Below, piece after piece: positions 4,836-17,500 of a stretch of 23,235 bases of DNA; positions within the stretch are counted from its first letter, which is position 1; each line of letters begins with the position of its first letter. Under the pieces are notes generated by a model, which was not told the origin of the DNA, did not search any database, and saw only the letters and a list, made by a program, of their open reading frames with translations. The position numbers were made by a program, and so were the translations under genes. Origin of the DNA: a virus; IMG/VR virus record IMGVR_UViG_3300041964_000012, positions 1 through 23,235 of that record; one strand, 5' to 3'.

Positions 4836-6593
4836 ATGATAGCGGAGGCTGCGAATCGCCTAAACGGCCGCGGCGCCGGTCCGACTGCGCCGCCGAAGAC
4901 CGAACCACTCTTCGACGCAGACAGCGTGAAGATGCTCCGGATGATGCGGGTGAACCCGCTCCCGATGCTCGACCCGCAGTCGCTCGGCGTCGCGCTCGAC
5001 CAGTTCGACACCGGCATGCTCCGGATGGCGGCGCTGCTCTGGGACGCGATGTGCCGGCGCGACGACACGCTGGTAACGGTGAAGCCGCAGCTCGAGAACG
5101 AGGTGGCCTCGAGAGACTGGGGAATCTTCCCCGTGAAAGGCGCCGACGAGAAGGAAGCAGCGCGGCACGTCGCGGCGCTCGAGTACTTCTACAACAACCT
5201 CACCGCGACCGATGCCTTCGATCGGAACGAGCGCGGCGGCCGCGACAAGCTCATCGAGCAGATGATGCAGGCGGACTCTTTCAAGTACGCGGTGCACCAT
5301 CTCGTCTGGCGGCCGCAGCCAGGGAAGATGATCGACGTCGACGGCGCGGATCCGGTGCCGGCGCTCACGGCGACGCTCGAGTATGTCCCGCTCTGGTTCT
5401 TCGAGAACACAACCGGCCAGCTGCGCTTCCTGAAGGACGGCGGCTTCGGCGTCGATGGCGTCGAGCTCGACTGGGAAAGCGGCGAATGGATGGTGACCGC
5501 CGGACGCGGGCTCATGTTTGCCGCGTCGATCTGCTACACGTTCAAGCGGCTGACGTTCCAGGACTGGACGATCTTCAACGAACGGTACGCGCAGAACAAA
5601 GTCGTCGGCACGACGCCAGGCGACGAGAACAGCAGTCAGGCGCGATCGCTGCGCGCCGTCCTCGAGAACTTCAACTCGGACCAGGCGATCCTGATCACCG
5701 AGTTCGCCGGCGACGCGAGCAAGCCGCCGATCGCGCTCCTCGGACCGACCGGCACCGCTTCCGTCGAGATCTTTGAAAAGTTCATCGACCGCCAGGACCG
5801 GAAGCTCTCGTCGATGTATCGCGGGAACGATCTCTCGATGATGTCGCGCGGCGGCCGCGGCGAGAACCCGACCGGCGCGAGCCTGCAGGAAGACGAAGGC
5901 GACGCAATGCTGCGCGGCGCTTGCCGGCGGATCGCCGGGACCTGTCAGGAGTTCATCGATCGCACGGTGATCCGCTTCTGCTTCGGCGAGGATGTGCAGC
6001 CGCTCGCCTACTTCGGACTGCCGGAGCTCGACAAAGACGACGTCGCGCAGCTGCGCGAGAGCGCCGGCTTCCTGGCGGATCGCGGCGCGCGCGTCTCACT
6101 ACCAGACACGGCCGAGCGCCTCGGCGTGCAGCTCGTGCCGAAAGCCGAGAAGGATGAAGAGATCCTGCAGCCGGCGATCAAAGGACCGGCGCCTGGTGCG
6201 GAGACGATCGACGAGGATCCGGATCGACCAGGCGGCAAACCAGCCCGCGAAGAGCGCACCGACAAAAACGCGCAATCGACCGAGAACGCGGCCGCGGATC
6301 CGGATCTCGAGGCGTTCCTCGATCCGTACGTCTCTGACTTCCGCAAAGCCTTTGCAGACGACCTGCAGCCGCTCCGCATAGCGATGGAACACGTCGTCGG
6401 ATCACCGAACGCCGCGCTGCAGATCCAGAACATGCAGGCGCTGCGCGGGCTGCTTCCAGAGCTGCTGAAGGAGATCAACCGAGCACCGAAAACCGTGCCG
6501 GTCCTGGTCGAGCTGATGAAAACAGCGATGCAGCGCGGCGCGTCACTCTCCCCGGCAACACCAACCCCCGAACTCGCAGTCACCGCACGATGA
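4836..6593 (+). CDS. Portal protein, Mu Gp29-like (DUF935)
   Basis: The 585-residue protein forms the dodecameric ring through which DNA enters and leaves the head. It follows the large terminase, as in Mu-like phages. DUF935-like features are the early run RMMRVNPLPMLDPQSL, the middle region with WFFENTTGQLRFL, LTFQDWTIFNERYAQNKVVG and ITEFAG, then SVEIFEKFIDRQDRKLSSMYRG and a Glu/Asp-rich helical stretch, the portal crown and clip region in this family. The C-terminal 100 residues are helical and Pro-rich. It starts at ATG 4836 after a strong ribosome binding site. Its TGA overlaps the ATG of the protease gene by four bases (ATGA), implying translational coupling. The length is slightly above the usual 500 or so residues. 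Confidence 0.85.
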   Translation: MIAEAANRLNGRGAGPTAPPKTEPLFDADSVKMLRMMRVNPLPMLDPQSLGVALDQFDTGMLRMAALLWDAMCRRDDTLVTVKPQLENEVASRDWGIFPVKGADEKEAARHVAALEYFYNNLTATDAFDRNERGGRDKLIEQMMQADSFKYAVHHLVWRPQPGKMIDVDGADPVPALTATLEYVPLWFFENTTGQLRFLKDGGFGVDGVELDWESGEWMVTAGRGLMFAASICYTFKRLTFQDWTIFNERYAQNKVVGTTPGDENSSQARSLRAVLENFNSDQAILITEFAGDASKPPIALLGPTGTASVEIFEKFIDRQDRKLSSMYRGNDLSMMSRGGRGENPTGASLQEDEGDAMLRGACRRIAGTCQEFIDRTVIRFCFGEDVQPLAYFGLPELDKDDVAQLRESAGFLADRGARVSLPDTAERLGVQLVPKAEKDEEILQPAIKGPAPGAETIDEDPDRPGGKPAREERTDKNAQSTENAAADPDLEAFLDPYVSDFRKAFADDLQPLRIAMEHVVGSPNAALQIQNMQALRGLLPELLKEINRAPKTVPVLVELMKTAMQRGASLSPATPTPELAVTAR

Positions 6594-7786
6594 AACTCTT
6601 CAACCTCGACTCTCTGTTCCCGACGCCGCGCACGATCGACGACTACCGCACTGCGAACAGCGCGGAGATGCGCCTCTCGGCGATGATCTCCGCGAACGCG
6701 CCGGACGTCTCCGCGATCAACAACGACGAGTGGTTCGTCATCTGTCCGTTCGGCGAGTTCCCTTCGCCGGACCGCAGCTACACGCAGATGTTCGGCAAAG
6801 CCGAAGCCGACGAGGTCCTGCGCACCTGGAACTCGATCCCTGGCACCGCGGCGCGCTGGTTCAAAAATAAGTGGCACCGGCTGACGTCGACGTCGAACGG
6901 CGCGCCTGGCTGGGACGGTCACCCGGAGACAGACAAAAACCGCTGGCCGGTCGAGCGCCTGCTCTGCGAGGTCACCGACCTTCGCGTCACTGAGAACGCG
7001 CTCGAGGGGAAGATCACCTGGAACGCGAAAGGCATGGAACGCCGCACGCGGGGCCCGCTCTTTCCGTCCCCGATCTTCTGGCACAACCCGCCAGACGCGG
7101 AGCGCCGCGTCTTCCCTGCGCTCCTGGAGTCCATCGGTCTCGTACCGACTCCGAACATCGCTTCCGTCCCAGCGTGGACACAAAACGCCTCACCCGAGGC
7201 AACAGCAGAAGAAAACCAAACCTCAAACACTATGGATCGTAAGAAATTGATCGCACAGCTCGGCCTCGGGGCAGACGCCACGGACGAGCAAATCACCGGC
7301 GCGATCGCGACGCTGCAAAGCACCGCGAACACCGCGACCGACAGCCTCACCACGGCCAACGCTGCAAAGCAGACGTTGGAGACACAGCTCAGCACCGCGA
7401 ACGGCCGAGTGACTACGCTCGAGACCGCGAACGGCATCCTGATCGATGGCGTCCTGGATCTGTTCGAAGCGGCCGGCAAGTTCACGCCAGCTCAGCGCGG
7501 CGAGATCCGGACGAAGTTCACCGCGAACATCGCTGACAGCGCCACGGTGATCACCGAGCTGAAGAGCAAGAAACCTGAGATCAACACGAGATCGCTCGAG
7601 ATCAACGGCAACCGCGTCGACCTCTCGACCGCGAACGCTCGCCAGACGGCGCTCGAGTCCGCGGTGACGAAGCGGATGTCTGACGACAAGTGCGATCGCG
7701 ACACCGCGTTCGCAAAGGTCCAGGCGGATCCGGCCTACGCGCAACTCTTCGCGGCAATGAAGCCGGCACCGGCAGCAGCTGCCTAA
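6590..7786 (+). CDS. Prohead maturation protease with fused scaffold, Mu gpI/Z-like
   Basis: This 398-residue protein joins two parts. Residues 1-214 match the gpI-type serine protease: W50-FVICPFGEFPSP region, then PSPIFW with candidate catalytic Ser160, and GLVPTPNI at 183-190, resembling the 'aLtn.PNi' turn of this family. Residues 215-398 are a charged, helix-rich scaffold beginning MDRKKLIAQLGLGADATD. The protease digests the scaffold and trims head proteins during maturation. The tripeptide TAN occurs once near the N-terminus (21-23) and six times in the scaffold half. The start overlaps the portal stop. An internal ATG at 7232 can produce the scaffold alone, as Mu does with Z. Catalytic residue assignment is by family pattern and is not certain. 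Confidence 0.75.
   Translation: MKLFNLDSLFPTPRTIDDYRTANSAEMRLSAMISANAPDVSAINNDEWFVICPFGEFPSPDRSYTQMFGKAEADEVLRTWNSIPGTAARWFKNKWHRLTSTSNGAPGWDGHPETDKNRWPVERLLCEVTDLRVTENALEGKITWNAKGMERRTRGPLFPSPIFWHNPPDAERRVFPALLESIGLVPTPNIASVPAWTQNASPEATAEENQTSNTMDRKKLIAQLGLGADATDEQITGAIATLQSTANTATDSLTTANAAKQTLETQLSTANGRVTTLETANGILIDGVLDLFEAAGKFTPAQRGEIRTKFTANIADSATVITELKSKKPEINTRSLEINGNRVDLSTANARQTALESAVTKRMSDDKCDRDTAFAKVQADPAYAQLFAAMKPAPAAAA
7232..7786 (+). CDS. Nested internal start giving free scaffold protein (Z-like)
   Basis: ATG 7232 (residue 215 of the protease gene) opens an in-frame 184-residue product with the helical scaffold half only. Its leader, TCAAACACTATG, nearly repeats the leader of the decoration gene at 8267 (ATCAACACTATG), which has no Shine-Dalgarno site either. 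In Mu the scaffold Z is made from a start inside I in the same way. Separate expression here is inferred. Confidence 0.5.
   Translation: MDRKKLIAQLGLGADATDEQITGAIATLQSTANTATDSLTTANAAKQTLETQLSTANGRVTTLETANGILIDGVLDLFEAAGKFTPAQRGEIRTKFTANIADSATVITELKSKKPEINTRSLEINGNRVDLSTANARQTALESAVTKRMSDDKCDRDTAFAKVQADPAYAQLFAAMKPAPAAAA
7322..7636 (+). repeat. Thr-Ala-Asn repeats across the scaffold domain
   Basis: Within 105 residues the scaffold holds six TAN tripeptides, with Thr at 245, 255, 269, 279, 311 and 347. Preceding residues are usually Ser, Thr, Glu or Phe. Codons vary (ACC GCG AAC, ACG GCC AAC and others), so the amino-acid motif and not only a DNA repeat appears to be kept. Spacing of about 10 residues in the first four fits exposed, regularly placed sites along a helical rod. 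Confidence 0.7.
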
Positions 7787-7792
7787 CGAGGG

Positions 7793-7833
7793 ACCACCAC
7801 CACCACCAAAACCAACCAGCATACCACCAGGAG
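7793..7833 (+). promoter_or_regulatory. ACC-repeat leader and ribosome binding site of gene 7842
   Basis: Five tandem ACC triplets (7793-7807) are followed by more A/C-rich, purine-pyrimidine simple sequence and then AGGAG at 7829-7833, eight bases before ATG 7842. Such leaders are unstructured and would keep the start open. A similar A/C-rich leader without AGGAG precedes the gene at 16373. Confidence 0.5.
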
Positions 7834-7841
7834 AAAAACTT

Positions 7842-8225
7842 ATGATTCGAATCAAACTCGCGCTGCTGAGTGCGATTGCCGTCGCCTTTGCGCGGCCGAT
7901 CGGCTTCAGCACCGCTAACGCGGCCGCGACCGACGCGCCTCCAACCGAGGAAAAGCCGAAAACAAACAGCGACCGCATTGCTCTCCTCGAGCAGCGGATC
8001 GCGGCACAAGATGACGAGCTCGCACGTCTGCGCACCGCTTCGCCGGTCGCGATCGAGCCCGGCACCGATCACACCACGCAGCTCCTGATCAAAGGCGCCG
8101 GCGTGAAGATGGAAGACGTCGGCTGGCGCATTCGCGCTGGTCTCTCGCCGGCGCAAGCCGTCGAGGTTGCGCTCACCGAGAAGACCGAGGCGGACAGCCT
8201 CAACAACGACGGAGGCAAAAAGTAA
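7842..8225 (+). CDS. Head-region protein with signal-like N-terminus, unknown function
   Basis: The 127-residue protein opens with a Sec-like N-terminus: basic MIRIK, a hydrophobic core LALLSAIAVAFA, then RPIGFSTANAA. The remainder is a short coiled coil (residues about 43-62: RIALLEQRIAAQDDELARL), a mixed region GTDHTTQLLIKGAG and a helical, acidic tail. It lies between the scaffold and the decoration gene, so a head role is likely. The stretch RPxxFSTAN is shared in form with the decoration protein (RRPFSTAN), indicating a common processing or targeting element. I do not recognise a family. A minor decoration or scaffold helper are possibilities. Confidence 0.6.
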   Translation: MIRIKLALLSAIAVAFARPIGFSTANAAATDAPPTEEKPKTNSDRIALLEQRIAAQDDELARLRTASPVAIEPGTDHTTQLLIKGAGVKMEDVGWRIRAGLSPAQAVEVALTEKTEADSLNNDGGKK

Positions 8226-8266
8226 GGAGCGCAGCCGCAAAGCTGAAGCCCTGAAGCATCAACACT

Positions 8267-8710
8267 ATGAAGCATCTAAAAATTGCACTCGTCTCGGCCG
8301 CTGCGCTGGTCCTCACCGGACTGCGCCGGCCGTTCTCCACCGCGAACGTCGAAGGCACTGTCGGCACGCATGAAAAGGCGATCGGTCGCTATACCGACGC
8401 CGCGATCCCTACGCGCTACCTGCTCGTGAAAAAAGGCAGCGACGCCGATCACATCGCCCTCTGCGGCGCCGGCGACGTGCCACTCGGCACTGTCGACGAT
8501 GAAGCGAGCGCCGCTGAAAAGCGCGTGCACGTCAACCTCCTCGGCAAAGGACCGTCCAAGAAGATGGTCGCGAGCGGCGCCATCGGCGCAGGCGTGCGGG
8601 TGTATGCCGCTGCAGGTGGCAAGATCGCCGCTGCGGGCACTGTCGAAGTCGGCATCTCGCTCACCGCGGCCGCGGCTGACAACGACATCCTCGAAGTCAA
8701 CGACCGCTAA
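8267..8710 (+). CDS. Capsid decoration/cement protein, DUF2190 family
   Basis: Residues 28-147 match the DUF2190 head-decoration pattern: short beta strands with CGAGDVPLGTVDDEA, a valine/glycine-rich middle (SGAIGAGVRVYAAAGGKIA) and the closing ISLTAAAADNDILEV. Such proteins bind the outer capsid surface and stabilise it against DNA pressure. Unusually, about 27 residues precede the domain: MKHLK, a hydrophobic core IALVSAAALVLTGL, then RRPFSTAN. Family members usually begin directly at the domain. Cleavage after TAN would give a normal 120-residue protein. The start has no Shine-Dalgarno site but has the A/C-rich leader shared with the internal scaffold start. Confidence 0.8.
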   Translation: MKHLKIALVSAAALVLTGLRRPFSTANVEGTVGTHEKAIGRYTDAAIPTRYLLVKKGSDADHIALCGAGDVPLGTVDDEASAAEKRVHVNLLGKGPSKKMVASGAIGAGVRVYAAAGGKIAAAGTVEVGISLTAAAADNDILEVNDR

Positions 8711-8760
8711 ATCCGCACAGCGTCACAACCAGCCCTAACGACTCCCAGTCACTCACAAAA

Positions 8761-10209
8761 ATGAAATCACTACTCACACTCAGCATCGCAATCACGGCGC
8801 TGGCGTTCAGCTCGACCAGCACTCGAGCGGAACTCACACCACCGTCTCTGTCGGAACAGTCCGTCGCCAGCACCGAGCAATCGGCACCGGCGCCTGGCTC
8901 GTTTGTTTACCTCAAATCTTCTGACGCACCGATCGCGGCCTTCGCCTACATCGCATCCGTCCCAGCCGACCGCTGGACGCAGAGCATCTTCGCGATCGCT
9001 CTTGCTTTCGCGGCCTGCGCGTATCTGCCGAAGTGCTACCGCAGCCTCGGCGCCTTCAAACGCTACATCGTCGAAGTGATGCGCGACCCGCTCGAGAGGG
9101 TCTCTCTGCAGGTGAAACGAGCGCTCTTCGTGCTCCGGGTCATCGCGGCACAGTTCTGCAACGGTCTCCGCTCAGACTTCTGCACGGCGAACCGTGCGGA
9201 TCTCCGTACGGCGAATGCAGCCGAAGTGCGCGCGGTCCTGGCTGGCGCACGCCTGCCGGATTACGATCCGAACGCGCAGCTGCGGCACGGTCTCCTGACG
9301 ACGGCGAACGCCTCACTCTTCGACTCGACGCATCTGTCTGAGGCGATGACTGGCTACGCGGTCGGATGGACCGATCCGCACGGCTACGACGCAGCGAGCG
9401 AATTCATCGCTCCGTCGCTTATGCCTGGCGGCGAGCTCTACGAGCACTTCGAATACCCGAACGCGGAGGCGTTTCTCAGCGACGAAGCACCGGATGATCT
9501 GCGGCCGATCGGCGCGGACTTCAAGACGGTCGACTACACCCAGAGCAAAACGCAGCGCGAGATCCCGAATCGCGGTCTCCGCATGGTCGTCGATTACGAT
9601 CGCGTGCGCCGCATGCCGAACTGGCAGCAGCTCTACACCGGCCGTCTGATGCAGCGGCTGAAGCGCAACGCCTTCCGGCGTAAATACGCGCTTGCTCTTG
9701 CAGCTGGCGCCGCCGCCGCGCTGACGTGGGACGCCGCCGGTGGAGCGGATCCGGATCTCGACATCGCGAAACAGACGAAGGCCGCCGGCGACTCGAGCGG
9801 CATCTCGCCGAACCGCGCGCTCTGGGGCCAGGCTGCGAAGCTCCTCCGCTTCGCGACCTATGGCGCGACCAACACCGCGAAGGCGATGGCTGGCCGCATG
9901 CTGAGCCCGGAGGAAGCGAGCGCGAAGGCCGGCCTGCAGGCGCTGGTCGACGAGTCCCGCGTCCAGAACGGCGCGAGCAAAGCGCAGATCGTCGGCAGCA
10001 AGATCATCTTGTTCAGCGCCTATGGCATGAGCGGCGAAGATCCGAGCAACTTCAAGACGGCGATCGGCACGACGCAGCAGGGCGGCCGCTATGCGGTCTA
10101 CGTGCGCCAGATCGGCGTGAAGTTCTGGGAGATCACGGTCGAGACCTACGAGACCGAATTCTGCGCGACCACGCTCGGCGTGCGGACCCTCACCATCTCT
10201 GACGTCTAA
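8761..10209 (+). CDS. Major capsid protein with long hydrophobic N-terminal extension
   Basis: The 482-residue protein follows protease, scaffold and decoration genes, the slot of the major head subunit. Residues from about 185 on are of HK97-fold character: MPGGELYEHFEYPNAEAF, then DYDRVRRMPNWQQLYTGRLMQRLKRN (the long helix), a SPNRALWGQAAKLLRFA stretch and a beta-rich end with YAVYVRQIGVKFWEI. The first 180 residues are odd: a signal-like start (MKSLLTLSIAITALAF to TRA23), a second hydrophobic segment at 75-90, a basic amphipathic region at 93-132, then TAN at 142-144, 150-152 and 181-183. Removal at the last site leaves about 299 residues, a normal capsid-protein size. The extension may act as an HK97-like delta domain. 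I rate the capsid assignment high and the processing as inference. Confidence 0.8.
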   Translation: MKSLLTLSIAITALAFSSTSTRAELTPPSLSEQSVASTEQSAPAPGSFVYLKSSDAPIAAFAYIASVPADRWTQSIFAIALAFAACAYLPKCYRSLGAFKRYIVEVMRDPLERVSLQVKRALFVLRVIAAQFCNGLRSDFCTANRADLRTANAAEVRAVLAGARLPDYDPNAQLRHGLLTTANASLFDSTHLSEAMTGYAVGWTDPHGYDAASEFIAPSLMPGGELYEHFEYPNAEAFLSDEAPDDLRPIGADFKTVDYTQSKTQREIPNRGLRMVVDYDRVRRMPNWQQLYTGRLMQRLKRNAFRRKYALALAAGAAAALTWDAAGGADPDLDIAKQTKAAGDSSGISPNRALWGQAAKLLRFATYGATNTAKAMAGRMLSPEEASAKAGLQALVDESRVQNGASKAQIVGSKIILFSAYGMSGEDPSNFKTAIGTTQQGGRYAVYVRQIGVKFWEITVETYETEFCATTLGVRTLTISDV

Positions 10210-14079: not shown

Positions 14080-14172
14080 CAACTTGTGGGCGTGTGCGGC
14101 GGTCGGGCTGCTCGTCCTGACTTGGGCGGTTGTTTGCTCGAGGAGTTTACGGCGGTCGCAGGAGGGAAAGCG

Positions 14173-15087
14173 ATGATCTTCTCTCGCACAAAACGCATCG
14201 CCTTCGCGGTGGCTGCGCTGACAACGAACGCGATCGCATTCTCGCGGCCGCTGCCGTTTGCGGCTGCGGTCGAGTCGCGTGACGTGCGCTCGATCCTGCC
14301 GACGACGCTCTCGAGCGCGGACATCCGCGACGCGCTGGTGCAGGACTTCATCGATCGCGCGACGTTCTCGGCCAGAGTGACGAACGCGCGTTTTCTGGAC
14401 GAGATCGACGAGGTCACGCGCCTGGCGATAGCCGGCCAGATCGACCCGGCAACGGCCGAGCTCCGGCTGCTCAATATCCTGCACGACATCGGCTACGAGC
14501 CGACGCGCGAAGATGCCGGCACGATCCGAGATCTCTCGAGTCACGAGCGCCTGCAGCTGATCATCCGGACGAACGCGCAGATGGCGCAAGGCTACGGGCA
14601 ATGGATCCAGGGCCAGACGCCAGGCGGGCTCGACGCGTTCCCGGCGCAGGAGCTCTTCCGACTGCAGCGGCGCCGCGTCGAGCGCGGCAGCACAAAGAGC
14701 ACGATCGGCTGGCCGCAGCGATGGACCGACGCCGGCGGCACGATCTACCAGGACGTCGACCGCAACGGGCAACCGATCGGCCGCATGATCGCGCGGAAAG
14801 ACGACCAGGTCTGGATCCGCCTCGGCACGATGTGGAACGACTCGCTCGGCAATCCCTACCCTCCCTTCGCTTTTAATAGCGGCATGTGGGTGAAGGGCGT
14901 CAGCCGCAAGGAAGCGATGCGGCTCGGCATCATCGACCGCGACACGCAGATCTCGCCGCAGTCGAAAGGATTCAACGACGACCTGCGCTTTCCGGCGCAG
15001 GTGCGCAGCGAGGCGCTGCTGCAGGCGCTGCTCGAATCCCTCGGCCCGGACTACGACATTCTCGACGGAGTGCTGACATCGCGATGA
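14173..15087 (+). CDS. Minor head protein, Mu gpF-like
   Basis: The 304-residue protein is identified by its C-terminal half: PFAFNSGMWVKGVSRKEAMRLG matches the 'FNSGM.V.dv.r.eA..LGl' ending of Mu gpF-type head morphogenesis proteins, preceded by a helical QLIIRTNAQMAQGYGQW region. GpF is a minor head component near the portal. In Mu the gene follows the portal; here it lies over 7 kb away. The start at 14173 has a strong AGGAGGG (14160-14166) six bases upstream; the frame is open further up but without such a site. The N-terminus has a basic, hydrophobic signal-like segment (SRTKRIAFAVAALTTNAIAF) then SRPLPFAAAV, like the decoration protein. It overlaps the next gene by four bases. Confidence 0.75.
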   Translation: MIFSRTKRIAFAVAALTTNAIAFSRPLPFAAAVESRDVRSILPTTLSSADIRDALVQDFIDRATFSARVTNARFLDEIDEVTRLAIAGQIDPATAELRLLNILHDIGYEPTREDAGTIRDLSSHERLQLIIRTNAQMAQGYGQWIQGQTPGGLDAFPAQELFRLQRRRVERGSTKSTIGWPQRWTDAGGTIYQDVDRNGQPIGRMIARKDDQVWIRLGTMWNDSLGNPYPPFAFNSGMWVKGVSRKEAMRLGIIDRDTQISPQSKGFNDDLRFPAQVRSEALLQALLESLGPDYDILDGVLTSR

Positions 15088-16747: not shown

Positions 16748-17500
16748 ATGATTGAACAGGGAACACTCAGCACAGCTAACCGGGCGAGCTACGATCGGCT
16801 CACCGGCAAGGCCGTTTTCTTTGAAGACGGCGTCAGTCACGGCGTCGATTTCGGGCTGATCGATATGACGGCAGCCGAGTACGGCATCGAGCGCGAGAAG
16901 ATCATGGCCGCGATCCAGGGCAACGTCGTGCAGGCGTTCGAGGAGACGGTCAGCGTCTCGCCGATCTACACGCTCAAAGGAAAGCAGTTTCACGCGCAGA
17001 TCATGCCGCTCGTTCTGCTCGGCACTCGCAACGCCGACGTTGCGCAGGCGCAGGCAAACGGCGCGACCACTGTCATCGCGAACGTGACGCTCGGCGGCAC
17101 CTATGACATCGGTGCGCGTAACATCAGCGCCGTAGTCGTGACGCAGGCGGCAGACACACTCGAGGCGGACGTCGACTACTTCCTCGACGCGGCCGCAGGG
17201 TTCATCCGCTTTGCGTTTGTGCCGAGTTCGAAGCTCTCCGGCGGCGAATCGGTGACGGTCACGTTCAACAAGCCGGCGATCACGCGCGAGAGTCACACCG
17301 CGTTCAACAAGCTAAACCGCGACGGCGTCCTGAAGCTCCTCGAGTTCGACAACAAGAGCTCGGTCGTTAAAAACGAGTGGGCGTTTCCTGGCTCGCTCAG
17401 CGCGGAGAATCCTGGCGACACCGATCCCACGAAGTCGAAGCAATGGAGCTTCCGCTTCTCGCTGAACGGCCAGCCGACACTGCTGCGCCGCGCGGCTTAA
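16748..17500 (+). CDS. Major tail tube protein
   Basis: The 250-residue protein is beta-rich, with the features of siphovirus tail-tube subunits: a repeated FFEDGVSHGVDFG / YTLKGKQFHAQIMPLVLLG start, an immunoglobulin-like insert (VTLGGTYDIG..ISAVVVTQAADTLEADVDYFLDAAAG) and a C-terminal strand block ending KSKQWSFRFSLNGQP. It precedes the chaperone pair and tape measure, the usual order. A TAN motif lies at 9-11 (LSTANRA). No tail sheath gene is found, so the tail should be non-contractile. The start has an A/C-rich leader (AAACTCACCATT). Confidence 0.75.
   Translation: MIEQGTLSTANRASYDRLTGKAVFFEDGVSHGVDFGLIDMTAAEYGIEREKIMAAIQGNVVQAFEETVSVSPIYTLKGKQFHAQIMPLVLLGTRNADVAQAQANGATTVIANVTLGGTYDIGARNISAVVVTQAADTLEADVDYFLDAAAGFIRFAFVPSSKLSGGESVTVTFNKPAITRESHTAFNKLNRDGVLKLLEFDNKSSVVKNEWAFPGSLSAENPGDTDPTKSKQWSFRFSLNGQPTLLRRAA

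Follow-up and report, generated by a model that had tools for sequence, protein, structure and literature searches.

Among the prohead proteases with described cut sites, gp21 of phage T4 cuts at L/I-x-E, shreds the scaffold, trims the proteins of the head shell and acts on proheads attached to the inner membrane (PMC9026906), and gp245 of phage SPN3US has A-x-E as its site (PMC10052503). In the literature library searched, neither a cut-site consensus for the Mu-type protease gpI nor an Asn-specific prohead protease site was found. Here, positions 1 to 23,235 of the IMG/VR virus record IMGVR_UViG_3300041964_000012 (the window, 23,235 nucleotides in full) were examined. The window, a phage fragment of 23 kb, carries a Mu-type head module, the proteins of which repeat the tripeptide Thr-Ala-Asn (TAN). 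Comparison with related head modules makes it very probable that TAN is the recognition signature of the phage's own prohead protease gpI, which would cut after Asn in its scaffold, in the major capsid protein, in the decoration protein and in a small protein.

TAN in the head module and gpI

The head module encodes, in order, the terminase, a portal protein (PF06074), the gpI protease-scaffold, the small protein, the decoration protein, the major capsid protein and a gp36-like adaptor; all features described below are on the plus strand. As the initial annotation had counted, TAN occurs 12 times in four of these proteins (1154 amino acids): at residues 21, 245, 255, 269, 279, 311 and 347 of gpI, 24 of the small protein, 25 of the decoration protein, and 142, 150 and 181 of the capsid protein. 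Composition shuffles of the same set gave a mean of 0.61 and a maximum of 5 across 5000 trials. Of all tripeptides in the set TAN is the most frequent, and 10 of the 12 copies have the form hydrophobic-x-TAN (0.16 expected). The other 18 proteins of the window (5379 amino acids) hold two copies, matching the 1.75 expected; the terminase, portal, tape measure and hub have none, and the two are found in a lysis-region protein (residue 197) and in the tail tube protein (residue 9, within LSTAN; 16772..16780). The tail tube copy may be due to chance or may mark a further substrate. As the initial annotation noted, the codons vary: six different triplets encode TAN, although ACC-GCG-AAC accounts for 6 of the 12 copies.

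Single-sequence searches with the capsid protein or gpI returned no relatives among IMG/VR or GenBank phages, since both proteins are too divergent. The terminase, used as bait, led to 131 loci in IMG/VR and GTDB genomes, the hosts of which, where named, are mainly Verrucomicrobiota and close kin (Opitutaceae, Akkermansia, Kiritimatiellae). Iterated profile searches of these yielded 57 head modules that have both gpI and a capsid protein and are non-redundant at 75% gpI identity. The capsid protein is unextended in 29 of the 57 (class A) and N-terminally extended in 28, including the window (class B). Enrichment of TAN, which the initial annotation expected in related phages with the same protease, was not found for the literal tripeptide, which is private to the window phage with only scattered matches in relatives; it was found for a generalised, Asn-ending form, present at 28 of 28 capsid and 28 of 28 decoration sites in class B.

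The gpI gene (6590..7786, 398 amino acids) is located between those of the portal and the capsid protein, and its product includes a fused scaffold region, as in Mu. The protein matches PF10123 (29.6 bits, cut-off 25.2) and phrog_328 (head maturation protease, E = 8e-20); its scaffold stretch is weakly similar to PF06810, below the cut-off (20.3 versus 35), and to phrog_194 (head scaffolding, E = 0.0019). Alignment with relatives and with Mu gpI identifies His111 (6920-6922) and Ser160 (7067-7069) as putative catalytic residues, both of which are kept in 28/28 class B and 27/27 class A proteins and in Mu gpI. By these features the window protein belongs to the Mu-type gpI family, and proteolytic activity is predicted for it. 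A gpI profile search found no relative with a solved structure. Six TAN copies of gpI are in the scaffold (7322..7330, 7352..7360, 7394..7402, 7424..7432, 7520..7528 and 7628..7636), and the seventh (residues 21-23, 6650..6658) is a candidate pro-site upstream of the protease domain; Asn aligns at this site in 24/28 class B and 17/27 class A proteins.

Asparagine-ending sites in related head modules

The major capsid protein precursor (8761..10209) has an N-terminal region of 183 amino acids followed by a domain of 299 amino acids. Its predicted model, of low quality up to about residue 160 and of high confidence from about 180 on, has HK97-fold matches in Foldseek, which supports assignment of the domain to that fold. 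Class A capsid proteins begin where the shell domain does, with the Met 0-3 residues from that point in nearly all 29; a few of their genes have longer open frames, yet Met is found at the shell-domain start in these also. Class B proteins have 28-183 extra N-terminal residues, the last of which is Asn in 28 of 28, and none of the 28 has Met within the first two residues of the mature start. In the window phage this Asn ends the TAN at residue 181 (9301..9309), which adjoins the mature domain and is the predicted final cut, and the copies at 142 (9184..9192) and 150 (9208..9216) are within the propeptide. The capsid extensions of only two of the 28 class B phages, the window phage being one, contain a segment of sufficient hydrophobicity for a membrane helix. 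Residues 35-132 of its propeptide (8863..9156), a hydrophobic anchor-like module, are homologous to the decoration propeptide of locus L072 (L072:14746-16071; phmmer E = 3.9e-13), not to the capsid protein of that locus; the anchor-like module thus moves between substrates. In seven terminase relatives with another portal and protease type (L001, L002, L004, L010-L012 and L018), the capsid proteins start with one or two hydrophobic segments followed by a coiled-coil-like region.

The decoration (cement) protein precursor (8267..8710) is modelled as a helix (residues 2-18), basic residues, FSTAN (TAN at 8339-8347) and a beta domain, 120 amino acids remaining after the motif. Mean pLDDT is 89, with low confidence at residues 23-27, exactly FSTAN, and at 30-32; the beta domain begins at 38. 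The position of the least confident stretch, between helix and beta domain, was taken to favour cleavage there. The protein scores 20.8 against PF09956, short of the cut-off of 24; a cement fold is indicated by Foldseek, with best matches to HFTV1 capsid-surface chains (E = 2e-4) and weaker ones to the phi29 gp8.5 base and the TW1 stabilising protein. The decoration extension is present in the same 28 class B phages and ends in Asn in 28 of 28. In both proteins the Asn occupies the column at which unextended relatives begin with Met, and the mature sizes that had been calculated for a cut at TAN, 299 amino acids for the capsid protein and 120 for the decoration protein, are those left by a cut after this Asn. 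A hydrophobic segment of membrane-helix grade is present in the decoration extension in 26/28 class B phages, compared with 3/29 in the first 60 residues of class A decoration proteins, and is commonly followed by basic residues in class B, which by the positive-inside rule suggests N-out/C-in membrane anchoring of most decoration propeptides.

The small protein (7842..8225, 127 amino acids) likewise has a hydrophobic N-terminus ending in FSTAN (7911-7919), and by eye its C-terminal AGLxxxQA element resembles small open reading frames at the same gene position in L006, L027, L040, L082 and L109. In L035 an extra gene between those of gpI and the decoration protein (L035:14113-14799) encodes a hydrophobic start ending in CALAN/E, perhaps a second scaffold-like substrate. 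A minor-head-like protein of the window (14113-15087) also has a hydrophobic start (KRIAFAVAALTTNAIAF), which contains TTN, a near match to the site.

The residues preceding Asn differ from phage to phage, being TAN in the window, LAN in L006, R[LI]NA in L021, AAN in L022, LANE in L025, EANA in L027 and A-[FVTI]-N in L072. Site profiles (positions P4, P3, P2 and P1', with Asn as P1) were built from the Asn contexts of the gpI of one phage only. Capsid sites score 1.57 bits with the profile of their own phage versus -2.03 with those of mismatched phages, and decoration sites 1.35 versus -2.24; among 16 phages with gpI less than 35% identical, the values are 1.85 versus -1.99 and 1.08 versus -2.26. 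None of 20,000 permutations reached the own-phage match for either protein, in the full set or in the subset, and control Asn residues of the mature capsid, scored in the same way, gave no own-phage effect. P3 is identical between capsid and decoration site in 61% of comparisons within one phage versus 20%. The C-terminal quarter of the portal also matches the gpI profile of its own phage (2.27 versus 0.07; 0/10,000 permutations), with no signal in the rest of the protein, so that the portal C-terminus is likely a further substrate; STEN/A near the C-terminus of the window portal (6276..6287), its best-scoring position, is a weaker candidate site. A portal-like open reading frame of L015 (L015:11317-14001) contains a long series of near-identical STSRLLD/STSQLLN repeats.

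As Asn is constant and the residues before it are phage-specific, the motif is to be written as phage-specific P4-P2 followed by Asn, not as Thr-Ala-Asn as such: Asn at P1 is the conserved element, and the Thr of TAN is the window phage's own variant. In this generalised form the protease-site reading of the initial annotation is supported, by Asn at the predicted cut in 28/28 class B phages and by preceding residues that co-vary with the scaffold repeats of the same phage. A scan of residue contexts is supportive only, as it ranked Asn first for constraint in no more than 17/28 class B and 13/29 class A gpI proteins, and in Mu and RhkS_P1 it did not single out the expected residue.

Alternative explanations and a proposed maturation pathway

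Recognition by an enzyme explains the matching among unrelated proteins, which composition, signal peptidase and self-cleavage do not. Coiled coils rich in Thr, Ala and Asn, together with codon bias, might yield repeated TAN by chance, as four scaffold copies (245-279) are in a Leu-repeat stretch and half of all copies are encoded by ACCGCGAAC; however, none of the 5000 shuffles reached the observed count, which refutes chance statistically, and neither the copies located precisely at propeptide ends, away from the coiled coil, nor the cross-phage pattern can come from composition, so that this explanation deserves practically no weight. Nodavirus and tetravirus capsids mature by self-cleavage through Asn cyclisation. 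A spontaneous break of this kind would fit the invariant Asn at P1 and the often small P1' residue at capsid sites, but such a reaction is dictated by the local fold of a single protein, and in the present case the phage-specific P4-P2 residues agree across four unrelated proteins and with the protease's own scaffold; we regard it as highly improbable.

Host signal peptidase I, removing hydrophobic signal peptides by a cut at STA/N, would account for the hydrophobic N-terminal stretches, and STA obeys the -3/-1 rule of small residues, although in the window phage only: relatives have RLN, VCN, RHN, RVN, ALN and similar triplets at the same place, in violation of the rule. The motif is moreover repeated within the scaffold, which has no signal peptide, and in many relatives the basic residues that follow the hydrophobic stretch would place the C-terminus in the cytoplasm, which leaves signal peptidase a very unlikely agent. 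The motif could also be a docking signal, binding protease or scaffold or targeting proteins to the prohead while itself staying uncut, since co-variation indicates a common recognition partner and not cleavage as such. Docking would not require that the motif coincide with the start of the mature homologue, as it exactly does in 28/28 capsid and 28/28 decoration proteins, and unextended capsid relatives exist as complete proteins; such a role is improbable.

Several points weigh against cleavage by gpI. The difference between classes A and B amounts to about one change (one or two) on the gpI tree, in which class A is essentially one clade, so that the joint presence of both extensions represents one or two events and not many independent ones; repeated independent origin of the extensions was considered and is rejected by this tree. 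The P4-P2 co-variation, and the constancy of Asn at less than 35% identity, are stronger evidence than the joint presence. Cutting may spare some scaffold TAN copies, which are in a coiled-coil-like stretch. Only in 11/28 phages does the capsid site score above all Asn residues of the mature capsid by its own profile, so that context beyond P4-P1' must matter. Finally, the decoration protein is outside the shell and the protease is thought to act inside, which leaves the topology of the decoration cut unexplained.

From these comparisons we infer a cut, its place after Asn, gpI as its enzyme, membrane insertion and a timing, as follows. The Mu-type gpI, translated in fusion with its scaffold, would cut after Asn once the prohead is assembled, at one site before its own catalytic domain and at several in its C-terminal scaffold, which would then fall apart. 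The capsid propeptide would be removed after Asn183, with two further cuts inside it, the decoration protein would be cut after Asn27 and the small protein after Asn26, and the portal would probably be cut near its C-terminus. Since both propeptides are hydrophobic in the window phage, and most decoration propeptides are anchor-like, cutting would free the mature proteins, perhaps whole proheads, from the inner membrane. The decoration protein might be cut before assembly, or its precursor might be reached through the early shell. A wider reading, which we hold tentatively and with slightly less than even confidence, is that the heads of these Verrucomicrobiota phages are built on the inner membrane via cleavable N-out/C-in anchors on the decoration protein (here also the capsid protein); that Asn-specific gpI serves as assembly clock and release switch, its specificity drifting while all substrates follow; and that every phage of the gpI family repeats its protease code as a scaffold tripeptide, making the cut site readable from sequence.

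Comparison with other prohead proteases

Scaffold repeats were noted in other members of the gpI family. LSA is found six times in Mu gpI (L132:3057-4142; 0.24 expected), with five copies in the scaffold part, which makes it a candidate Mu protease site; ORF36 of Pseudomonas phage B3 (L133:6358-7629) has F-[AS]-E seven times (0.27 expected), a motif resembling the L/I-x-E of T4, so that P1 would differ inside the family; and the I protein of Alteromonadaceae phage B23 (L136:13430-14452) has ALN five times (0.24 expected), its capsid and decoration-position proteins being without N-terminal extension. These three motifs were picked after looking, and the counts therefore illustrate and do not test. 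Class A gpI scaffolds contain Asn-Arg or Asn-Lys 192 times versus 64 expected (threefold; for example in L003, L009, L013, L014 and L016), and these pairs are also seen in some portal C-termini; the sister clade likely uses another code. On the simplest interpretation, the scaffold of each gpI carries repeated copies of that protease's own cut site. This gives a sequence-readable candidate consensus for Mu-type gpI proteases that extends to the laboratory phages Mu (LSA) and B3 (F-A/S-E). It also provides a clean natural case of enzyme-substrate co-evolution, in which a protease and several substrates would shift specificity together at a fixed P1, and it ties capsid maturation to membrane-anchor-like propeptides on an outer-shell protein, raising the question of where Verrucomicrobiota phage heads are built.

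The Asn-ending site would thus be a new specificity within a known kind of system. Among its nearest known counterparts, Mu gpI/Z and B3 ORF36 (PF10123) share with the window protein the family, the fused protease-scaffold and the repeated scaffold tripeptide, and in Mu also the conserved His and Ser, but differ at P1; Mu is without a capsid propeptide, since its capsid protein T begins at its own start codon according to the record. The three-residue signature, the N-terminal propeptides and the multiple sites inside propeptides are also features of SPN3US gp245 and phiKZ gp175; these giant-phage proteases have Glu at P1, and the text consulted mentions no fused scaffold. The mature decoration domain has the fold of HFTV1 capsid-surface and phi29 gp8.5-base cement proteins, and in the present case it follows a hydrophobic propeptide that has Asn as its last residue. 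With T4 gp21, a serine protease acting at the same step, the window system shares a short motif repeated in the scaffold and at propeptide ends and the apparent trimming of a capsid propeptide, in T4 on proheads at the inner membrane. Unlike in T4, P1 is Asn and not Glu at all 28 capsid and all 28 decoration sites, protease and scaffold are one protein, the decoration protein has an anchor-like propeptide, and the motif is tuned differently in different phages.

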